From assembly GCF_024227435.1 (NCBI RefSeq), contig NZ_CP100445.1:744001-808000 (forward strand): DNA of 64,000 nucleotides, in the 5' to 3' direction. Below the pieces are notes generated by a model. It made no database searches. It was not told the origin of the DNA and was given only the letters and a program-made list of their open reading frames with translations. Source of the DNA: Natrinema caseinilyticum. Lineage in GTDB: Archaea > Halobacteriota > Halobacteria > Halobacteriales > Natrialbaceae. Shown here piece by piece: positions 38,551-40,657 of the stretch. The position numbers were made by a program, and so were the translations under genes. Within the stretch, counting starts at the first letter, position 1. Each line of letters starts with the position of its first letter.

Positions 38551-39492
38551 TTACGCGAGCTTTTTCAAAATCCCGTAGACTGCATCGCGAAGCCGATCGG
38601 GAAGGTAGCGAGCGTAGAGTCCGTACTGCGCCAGCGGCCCGACCGGGTACCGCGCCGGCGGGTCGGGGCTGGTCGCGGCCTCGAGAATCGCGTCGGCGAC
38701 GTCCTCGGGATCGGACGCGAACGGACCACCGGCTCCGCTGCCGATCAGTTCGGCGTCGTCGTACAGTTCGTACAGCGACTCGTAGGCCGGCGTTCGGTCT
38801 TCGTCGGGGAGTTCGTCGTCGGCCCGGTCCGAGAAGTTCGTCTCGACCGGCCCGGGTTCGACGACGACGACGTCGATGCCGAACTCCTCGACTTCGCCCC
38901 GGAGAGAGTCGCTCATCGCCTCGAGGGCGTGTTTCGACCCTGCATAGGCCCCCGCACCGGGAATCGAAATTCGCCCGATCACGCTCGAGACGTTGACGAT
39001 CCGGCCCTCACCCTGGGCTCGCATGTGGGGCACGGCAGCACGAGTGAGCCGGTGGGGGCCGTAGACGTTGACGTCGAACTGTCTGTGGAGATCGACCGTG
39101 GCGACGTCCTCGAGCGGCCCCATCTGGGCGTAGCCGGCGTTGTTGACCACGCAGTCGAGCGCCCCCGCAATGTCGACGGTCTCCTCGACGGCCCGCGCCA
39201 CGCCCTCCGGTTCGGTGACGTCCAGCGCGAGCGTCTCGCAGCCCGCCTCCGCGAGCGACTCGATGTCGTCGACGTTTCGCGCCGTCGCGAACACCTGCCA
39301 CTCGTCGTCGAGGAAGGCTCGAGCCGTCGCGCGTCCGATCCCCGACGAACAGCCGGTGATGAGGACCGATTTCTTGCGCGTGTATCGGTCCGAATCGCTC
39401 CGGCTGGTCGCCTTGCGATCGCTGTCGTCTTCCACGACGGTCCCGTCCGGCCCGTCATCGGCTGTCCTGTCGACGTCCTCAGCGGTGGCCAT
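38551..39492 (-). CDS. Short-chain dehydrogenase/reductase
   Basis: The 313-residue SDR has cofactor motif TGCSSGIG at 46-53, NNAGYAQMGP around 115, and the catalytic YAGSK near 178-182 preceded by SSVIGRIS. An acidic N-terminal tail of about 40 residues (DDGPDGTVVEDDSDR) precedes the Rossmann fold; no internal ATG was found that would remove it. The basic residue after the second strand (FATARNVDD) suggests NADP preference. The substrate is unknown. The C-terminal YARYLPDRLRDAVYGIL resembles classical SDRs acting on retinol-like or keto substrates. A TATA-like ctaagtatc lies about 25-30 bp upstream. Confidence 0.88.
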   Translation of the reverse strand: MATAEDVDRTADDGPDGTVVEDDSDRKATSRSDSDRYTRKKSVLITGCSSGIGRATARAFLDDEWQVFATARNVDDIESLAEAGCETLALDVTEPEGVARAVEETVDIAGALDCVVNNAGYAQMGPLEDVATVDLHRQFDVNVYGPHRLTRAAVPHMRAQGEGRIVNVSSVIGRISIPGAGAYAGSKHALEAMSDSLRGEVEEFGIDVVVVEPGPVETNFSDRADDELPDEDRTPAYESLYELYDDAELIGSGAGGPFASDPEDVADAILEAATSPDPPARYPVGPLAQYGLYARYLPDRLRDAVYGILKKLA

Positions 39493-39580
39493 ACGTGACC
39501 GGTTCGAGAGACGATACCTAAGTATCGACGGTTTATCCCGATGATGGTACGTTCCGGATTTGGGTACGACTCGATTGTGG

Positions 39581-39782
39581 GATCACCTCGCTCGAGCGGA
39601 ATTCGAGTGCGTGAGCGTCTGGTTCGTTGCAGTTCGTGATCACCTCGCTCGCTGCAGCACGCACCCCGAAAGCCCCCGGTTGGCTCGAGTCCCAGGGCTC
39701 GCTGCGCTCCTCGGTCACTCGCGTCGCTCGTTCCCAGCGGTGCGTGCGTCGCCCGGGTTCCTCGGGCCAGCCGGCCCCTTTC
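39581..39782. repeat. Structured intergenic element with direct and inverted repeats
   Basis: The stretch contains a direct repeat of gatcacctcgctcg (39581-39594 and 39638-39651), a 22-bp inverted pair (39668-39689 with 39761-39782; both arms start GAAAG when read inward, 17 of 22 positions matching), and a perfect 9-bp inverted pair gcacgcacc (39657-39665) / ggtgcgtgc (39739-39747). There is no gene here; frames are arginine- and proline-rich. It resembles non-coding dispersed elements I associate with haloarchaeal genomes, but copies elsewhere cannot be checked from one window. Confidence 0.7.
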
Positions 39783-39865
39783 ATTCCCACCCGTCGCGGA
39801 CGGTCGGTCGGCGGGCTGTGATCAGTGGTTGGCCGAGGAACTGTGGGCTGTGGACGCGAGACGGC

Positions 39866-40657
39866 TCACCCGTCGAGTAATTTCTTGGCTTCGTCGGCGT
39901 ACTGATCCGCCAATCGGATCGGCTCCGGGAGCTTGTACGACGAGGTCAGTTCGAGAACCACGTCGGTCGCCGTCTCGGGGCCCACGCGGTGGCCCGAACT
40001 GACGTACACCGGGTTGATGTACCGGTTCGGCGAATCGTACTGGCGCGTCTGGACGGCGTAGCCGATGCAGGTGCCGTCGGGCGCGTCGACCCGCGAGTTC
40101 GCGTCGATGGGGACCCTCGAGCCCTCAAGTAACTCGTCGATATCCTCCCGCGGCGTCCCACAGAGGAGGCTCTTCGCGACGCCGATACTTGGCACGTCCC
40201 GAACGACCCCCATGTGGGTCGCGATCCCGGCCTGTCGGAAGTGGATCCGGCCGTTTCCGTCGAAGAGAAGCAGATCCGGCTCGACGGACAACTCCTCGAG
40301 CGCCGCGAGGATCGGGCCGCCCTCGCGGAACGAGAGGAGACCGGGGATGTAAGGGATCTCGAGGGGGGTCACCGCGTGGACGCGTTCGATCACCTCGCCG
40401 CCGCGCATGGCGACGACGGCGCTCAGGGCGCGGTCCTGGTCTCCGTCCTCGTTCGTGAGAAACGACTGGTCGACGCCGGCGACGACCGGCGGCTCGGTTC
40501 CGGTAGCCGCGGCCTCAAGCGGGTTCGAAATCGCGGCGGGGTCGAACGCGAAGTCGTCCGCGAAGACGGCGGCCGAGGCGATCTCGCGCTGGAGGGCTTC
40601 CATCTCCTCGCGGGAGAGACCGGGGTCGGGGACGAGGTCTGGGCGCGGGGTACTCAT
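39866..40657 (-). CDS. nfi: Endonuclease V
   Basis: The 263-residue enzyme cuts DNA one base past deaminated adenine (inosine). Family motifs are present in order: VVAGVDQSFLT (metal-binding D), YIPGLLSFREGGPILAALE, LLLFDGNGRIHFRQAG (second D), and THMGVVRDVPSIGVAKSLL. The C-terminal part NRYINPVYVSSGHRVG is standard. An N-terminal acidic extension of about 50 residues fits haloarchaea. It works in the cytoplasm in DNA repair; PolX lies 1.6 kb away, though on the other strand. Confidence 0.95.
   Translation of the reverse strand: MSTPRPDLVPDPGLSREEMEALQREIASAAVFADDFAFDPAAISNPLEAAATGTEPPVVAGVDQSFLTNEDGDQDRALSAVVAMRGGEVIERVHAVTPLEIPYIPGLLSFREGGPILAALEELSVEPDLLLFDGNGRIHFRQAGIATHMGVVRDVPSIGVAKSLLCGTPREDIDELLEGSRVPIDANSRVDAPDGTCIGYAVQTRQYDSPNRYINPVYVSSGHRVGPETATDVVLELTSSYKLPEPIRLADQYADEAKKLLDG

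Follow-up and report, generated by a model that had tools for sequence, protein, structure and literature searches.

The locus downstream of the endonuclease V gene

The window, by which we mean the whole 64,000-nucleotide stretch of Natrinema caseinilyticum DNA that was analysed, carries an intergenic element between a gene for endonuclease V and a gene for a short-chain dehydrogenase. The genes and the parts of the element, all read from the minus strand, are as follows (window coordinates).

38551-39492, minus strand: short-chain dehydrogenase gene, downstream of the element
39658-39824, minus strand: whole element copy in its single-arm form (match to covariance model R1, 158.1 bits; contig coordinates G000:C1:783658-783824, minus strand)
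39668-39689, minus strand: 3' strand of the arm stem, CTCGAGCCAACCGGGGGCTTTC
39698-39712, minus strand: conserved inner motif GAGGAGCGCAGCGAG, 3' side of the internal loops
39737-39751, minus strand: conserved inner motif CGACGCACGCACCGC (consensus CGACGCAAGCACCGC), 5' side of the internal loops
39761-39782, minus strand (the RNA sense): 5' strand of the arm stem, GAAAGGGGCCGGCTGGCCCGAG
39773-39792, minus strand: conserved head GGGTGGGAATGAAAGGGGCC (family consensus GGGTGGGAMTGAAAGGGGC)
39791-39803, minus strand: centre (P1) hairpin, CCGTC-CGC-GACGG
39866-40657, minus strand: endonuclease V gene (PF04493), whose stop codon lies ahead of the element on the same strand

An earlier note on this DNA had described a 115-bp core bounded by imperfect 22-bp inverted arms. 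This core (39668-39782) is indeed present and, in its minus-strand reading, corresponds to one arm of a dispersed element. The two 22-nt segments that bound it (39668-39689 and 39761-39782, 115 bp from end to end) are complementary at 17 of 22 positions, a value reached by none of 60 dinucleotide shuffles of 39581-39800, of which six reached 16. These segments are absent from the repeat finder's own output.

Two other repeats named in that note exist but do not belong to the family. The 9-bp inverted pair GCACGCACC (39657-39665 and 39739-39747) straddles, in our reading, the edge of the element, wherein its inner half is located in the conserved CGACGCAAGCACCGC motif and its outer half at the margin, outside the family fold. 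The 14-bp direct repeat (39581-39594 and 39638-39651) is perfect, but falls outside the model match at 39658-39824. The two copies of this repeat, GATCACCTCGCTCG, lie 57 bp apart in the flank (39581-39651); a related genome (L192) carries a similar repeated GATCACRCGCTC, and the 14-bp repeat is perhaps a local duplication. A palindrome, GATACCTAAGTATC (GATACTTAGGTATC on the minus strand), is located at 39513-39526, 5' of the dehydrogenase gene. It is present in all 29 of the loci L191-L219 and is perhaps a promoter or regulator site.

The earlier claim that such folding is not expected by chance is not sustained in that form by folding energy: the plus strand of 39581-39800 gives z -2.88 (1 of 200 shuffles as good) and its minus strand z -1.42 (15 of 200). 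For the 180 nucleotides at 39651-39830 on the minus strand, which is the strand favoured by the family evidence, z is -0.22 (83 of 200). Energy alone is weak evidence of structure, and the case for structure rests on comparison.

An 85-aa minus-strand open reading frame (39533-39790) overlaps the element. A coding reading was rejected: at the A of the window copy's ATG, 17 of 24 aligned copies differ, and the arms differ by insertions and deletions. Judged by reading the alignment, the element appears non-coding, as had been noted earlier from its look. A known Rfam RNA was likewise rejected, wherein no match on the element reaches the gathering score (Rfam 15). The sole match in window 39300-40100 lies outside the element and under gathering, and in four other element loci and the IS locus L224 only tRNAs, away from the elements, reach gathering. 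The best Rfam match on any element is mir-8338 at the centre of L189 (47.8 bits, E 1.2e-7, gathering 80). Haloarchaeal CRISPR repeats were also considered as possible look-alikes of GGGTGGGACTGAAAG, and kink-turns, bulge-helix-bulge motifs or ribozymes as possible counterparts of the internal loops.

A family dispersed through the Halobacteria

In a DNA search, sequence related to the element turned up in 29 of 41 genomes, the window's own genome counted. An alignment of 24 copies (A1) served as the source of model R1, which contains one mistaken pair (A1 columns 92-119; 59 unpaired cells) that is included in the figures given here. On the window minus strand, the first half of the consensus runs from the centre hairpin through GGGTGGGAMTGAAAGGGGC, a variable stem and CGACGCAAGCACCGC to a variable hairpin, and the second half from GAGGAGCGCAGCGAG through the other half of the stem to GGGGCTTTC.

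Matches to R1, with up to 19 candidates scored per genome, occur in 128 of the 145 sampled genomes of the class and in 52 of its 58 sampled genera. Natrinema, Haloterrigena, Haloarcula, Halosimplex, Haladaptatus, Halorussus and Halonotius are among the named carriers. A phylum-wide draw of 120 genomes yielded 17 positives, all from the window's own order; among the listed members of the 103 negatives, two are from its own genus or order and 18 are other members of the phylum. No match outside the class occurs among the genomes listed for this draw. The host genome holds five matches, and pairing is conserved in relatives, so the element is not a single copy devoid of structural conservation.

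The family was also considered as phage or plasmid cargo, which was rejected with 0 phage records and 5 plasmid records. Four IMG/VR stretches that carry the head motif gave no model match at E 0.01. On the second contig of the host (C2), there is a subfamily in which L256, L257 and L258 have the arm after a further shared stretch, AGCCCGGAACGG..GGAATGGTCGGTCGCGAGCGACGCGG, and the copies L027 and L031 share a GGGGCGGGCCGA..AAGAGC lead-in, as if they were part of a longer repeat.

Single arms and outward-pointing pairs

We assembled 155 units from two match sets (125 and 73 matches), which represent 153 distinct sequences (L049 is identical to L162, and L120 to L169). The contigs were scanned by the exact 19-nt head, which gave at least 120 stretches; the 155 units thus favour copies with an intact head. 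They comprise 112 single arms and 43 outward-pointing pairs; in 38 of the latter, the hits of the two arms to the model share 29-45 nt. Read on one strand, a pair consists of an outer stem, GAAAG..arm..CTTTC, a centre stem AGTCCCACCC/GGGTGGGACT, a second GAAAG..arm..CTTTC, and the other side of the outer stem, wherein the stem between the two arms replaces the centre (P1) hairpin. The junction of paired units contains zero unpaired bases, and a flush four-way junction can form. The predicted fold would comprise an outer stem, one or two arms with conserved internal loops, and the centre hairpin, joined by a flush three- or four-way junction.

In 36 parsed pairs, the outer stem has a mean of 6.3 Watson-Crick pairs out of 8, versus 4.4 when re-paired (maximum 5.03 in 500), a control that combines left and right ends of different units. 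Common descent within subfamilies may inflate the outer-stem value. The centre stem (28 parsed) scores 9.07 of 10 versus 8.77 re-paired (maximum 9.18), which proves little because this stem is nearly invariant. Among units with both ends, most of those with one arm measure 210-220 bp and most of those with two arms 303-526 bp.

Nine of the 155 units (L046, L069, L082, L093, L101, L137, L141, L147 and L154) contain another small palindromic element, GTTCG-hairpin-CGTGATCACG-hairpin-CGAAC, which may be a nested mobile hairpin and whose core pattern was counted 10 times across L037-L156.

Covariation and wobble pairs on one strand

RNAalifold predicted 41 pairs from the 24 copies, 25 of which have changes on both sides. 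Among 73 aligned copies (72 distinct), standard pairs fill 92.0% of cells, versus 70.0% in shuffles and 35-46% when slid, and 34 of the 41 pairs have changed on both sides, versus 26.1 in shuffles. The 73-copy alignments are products of fitting to the model and are biased towards its structure, and we therefore also examined the main stem without an alignment, with the register set by Watson-Crick pairing alone. Among 128 distinct stems, this alignment-free count gave 59 G-U mismatches, 9 A-C mismatches and 109 others. The G-U to A-C ratio is 28 to 5 in paired arms and 31 to 4 in single arms. In the fitted alignments the corresponding counts are 121 to 29, or 85 to 25 outside the centre hairpin, and 129 to 54 with three columns left out.

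The excess of G-U over A-C points to one strand, because a strand-symmetric DNA process would, over many insertions, be expected to affect both mismatches equally, and is most simply read as pointing to a sense-strand RNA. Since both arms of a pair exhibit this excess, the distal arm is in the sense orientation whichever way the unit is transcribed. The earlier note had listed a structured RNA among its possibilities; covariation and one-sided G-U tolerance favour it, and the RNA part of that proposal would stand in part only.

The main rival of a cis-acting RNA is a purely DNA-level palindrome, in which template switching within hairpins (quasi-palindrome correction) and the copying of master elements produce the compensatory changes, with no selection on RNA. 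Arms have been deleted and one arm tip inverted (L213) at the endonuclease V locus, as for unstable DNA palindromes; smaller palindromes occur inside nine of the 155 units; and the minus-strand fold of the single sequence is no more stable than that of shuffles. However, a strand-symmetric process does not predict the one-strand G-U excess seen without alignment (59 to 9), and correction would erase the loops, whereas A1 contains several unpaired internal-loop positions that never change even though the letters of the stem do. We consider this explanation unlikely. The conserved pairing of the hairpins is perhaps due to action as RNA.

Terminal inverted repeats and target duplications

The terminal inverted repeat (TIR) motif GGYRGTGTTCAGATAAG and its complement were read from the flanks and then tested on those same flanks. 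At the expected distance, 27 of the 155 units (two unit pairs among these 155 being identical in sequence) have TIRs on both sides and 43 have one on at least one side; the corresponding values for 4000 positions drawn at random from these loci are 1 placement and 2.0%. In 112 units no such TIR is found at the expected place. These figures refer to narrow windows, which were used because wide windows gave some-side matches in 54 of the 155 units with 11% expected by chance. The 27 units with two TIRs measure 129-526 bp, which is too short for a transposase gene.

Target duplications of 8 bp (at least 7 of 8 matching, with shifts up to 2) flank 12 of these 27 units, versus 1.0% of re-paired controls; with strict 8-mers and at least 6 of 8 matches, the values are 10 of 27 and 1.4%. 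Perfect duplications are represented by CAACGATC in L127 and GTCCGGCC in L144. A stringent de novo scan for TIRs with target duplications, wherein no TIR was fixed and other end types were admitted, recovered 2 of 152 units versus 0 of 455 controls. An empty site was found for L127 of Halonotius roseus, the only unit examined in this way: its joined flanks are uninterrupted in a genome of the same genus (G093) over 439 of 440 bases at 90% identity, with the target octamer present once and with one change.

Among 35 examined loci of PF13610 (IS6/IS240), four (L224, L244, L249 and L253) have the same TIRs at both ends and a fifth (L251) also has the GGYRGTGTTCAGATAAG motif, while another IS6-type end, GGCACTGTCTAGTT, occurs in 28. 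The IS6 element at L244, which resides in the same genome as the empty site, measures 697 bp, has an 8-bp duplication and contains a 213-aa open reading frame. An autonomous IS6 element carrying arms was sought and rejected, as the arm head, with up to one mismatch, is found in none of the 35 IS6 loci. Among the 145 class genomes, PF13610 was detected in 36, versus 128 for the element.

The TIRs, the 8-bp duplications, the IS6 elements with the same ends and the one empty site therefore identify the family as an IS6-type MITE. Together with the dispersal of the family, they bear out the earlier suggestion of a MITE or dispersed palindromic element, and, more broadly, the observations in that note stand in part while its interpretation is supported. 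Younger copies bear the ends of the IS6 family, whose elements would move them, with an IS6-family DDE transposase acting on the MITE in trans.

An alternative is that the element is REP- or REPIN-like and depends for its movement on a HUH (Y1) transposase that acts on single strands, as in IS200/IS605. Its palindromic units, paired in inverted orientation at a constant distance, do resemble REPINs and BIMEs, and strand-specific tolerance of mismatches would also suit a single-stranded DNA intermediate, but TIRs that match IS6, with 8-bp target duplications, are not expected of IS200/IS605 or REP elements. This origin is very improbable.

The stretch in the window is an old copy of this small gene-less transposon of salt-loving archaea. 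Its own ends are not recognisable, and its membership of the family is established by its body alone (R1, 158.1 bits). No TIR match was found within 300 bp of it (as L165), it is not one of the two hits of the de novo scan, and the search around all five host copies gave only one poor, one-sided TIR match. We infer that an IS6 transposase mobilises the element and that the window copy once had IS6-type ends.

History of the element at the endonuclease V locus

The endonuclease V gene was found in all 29 searched genomes of the genus, and full or shortened arms are located 3' of it in 18. By our sorting, 10 of the 29 have a full arm, one has a full-length arm with an inverted tip (L213), seven have a shortened arm, five retain the junction only (GGGTGGGAC|TTTC or similar), one has a remnant, two are decayed, and three have nothing recognisable. 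This distribution suggests that the element was inserted before much of the genus arose and that deletions of the arm have been frequent since. Because the arm is often shortened or lost here, it is not essential at this locus.

Two of these loci have further peculiarities. In L193 (G003), the flank immediately upstream of the element is lengthened by tandem copies of a unit of about 27 bp, similar to CCGCCGGCCACAGCCTGCCGACCA. In L213 (G005), the arm tip is inverted relative to related genomes, and model hits fall on both strands at the same place.

The window copy could now be a host 3'-UTR element of endonuclease V that is kept for that function, which is compatible with the best explanation given below. 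Its position directly 3' of the stop codon on the same strand accords with this, as do the full, tip-inverted, shortened and junction-only forms in the genus, but the three genomes with nothing recognisable, the two decayed copies and the one remnant show that loss is common, and any benefit would be weak. We regard such retention as somewhat unlikely.

A possible role in read-through transcripts

Gene context was assigned with a home-made ORF caller for 127 of the 155 units (28 lie at locus edges or are unclear, and 12 units were also flagged inside a called ORF). Single arms between co-directional genes are in sense orientation in 37 cases and antisense in 18 (p 0.014), a weak hint of action in transcripts. 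We infer that the arm may work as RNA.

As a whole, the best explanation (probability roughly 0.8) is an IS6-type MITE with a folded interior, whose arm would most likely act in cis in read-through transcripts. If the MITE assignment is taken as given, the chance that the arm is a cis-acting RNA element in such transcripts is a little short of even. The arm would fold in read-through transcripts of neighbouring genes and could be, for instance, an element for 3'-end processing, termination or stability, an activity that would make insertion harmless or useful. With a sense arm always distal in paired units, such a unit would serve transcription in both directions. The copy in the window would function within the 3' UTR of the endonuclease V mRNA.

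A bolder proposal is that the arm represents an undescribed class of structured RNA, spread by a transposon through most genera of the Halobacteria: a sense-strand domain with internal loops CGAYGCAAGCACC / GGAGCGCAGCGAG that would be kept by compensatory evolution and would act in host transcripts. We offer this tentatively, at somewhat less than even odds. MITEs are usually seen as two ends with little between them, whereas here the interior is the conserved part, in which the fold and fixed sequences of the loops are maintained across most of the sampled genera and which bears a one-strand wobble signature. If the arm acts in transcripts, a mobile element would give many genes a ready-made RNA control module, and genetically tractable archaea would possess a portable RNA element that could be a test case for regulatory RNA supplied by transposons. 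The covariance model also lets annotators mark copies that could be mistaken for small ORFs; the 85-aa frame in the window is an example.

Comparison with known systems

Bacterial REP, REPIN and BIME sequences are dispersed intergenic palindromes that often occur as inverted pairs. The family described here is larger and has the TIRs and target duplications of a DDE element. The available text of a paper on REPs of bacteria and archaea (PMC12306157) contains no word starting with 'halo', and among the literature matches listed there is no structured haloarchaeal MITE of this kind.

In Haloquadratum walsbyi, PATEs and SMRs are repeated and transposase-free, and PATEs contain palindromes, according to the available passages of PMC3119063. 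PATEs are described there as related to IS605-type elements and as having neither TIRs nor target duplications, and SMRs as having TIRs unrelated to known transposons and causing no duplications. By these descriptions, the IS6 TIRs and 8-bp duplications set the present family apart, and the same two features speak against membership among the IS605-related PATEs.

ISH14 and ISH29 are haloarchaeal IS6 insertion sequences of 696 and 697 bp with 8-bp target duplications (PMC6807381, available passages). Compared by description, their size and duplication length match those of the 697-bp element at L244, whose TIRs equal those of the MITE. Unlike the MITE, ISH14 and ISH29 encode a transposase, and the 35 IS6 loci examined here are without the arm head.

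Among the nearest known counterparts are MITEs assigned to IS6. The available passages of PMC7986276 give two IS6-family MITEs of 227 and 336 bp, which are near the lengths of the one-arm and shorter two-arm units described here. The available descriptions of IS6-family MITEs, on which alone the comparison is based, do not include conserved arms, a junction fold, covariation or class-wide spread. MITEHarch3 and MITEBth2 are ISfinder MITEs listed under IS6 in the passages available from PMC6807381 and, like the present family, have no transposase gene. The name MITEHarch3 suggests a haloarchaeon and, compared by description, this MITE may belong to the very family described here.
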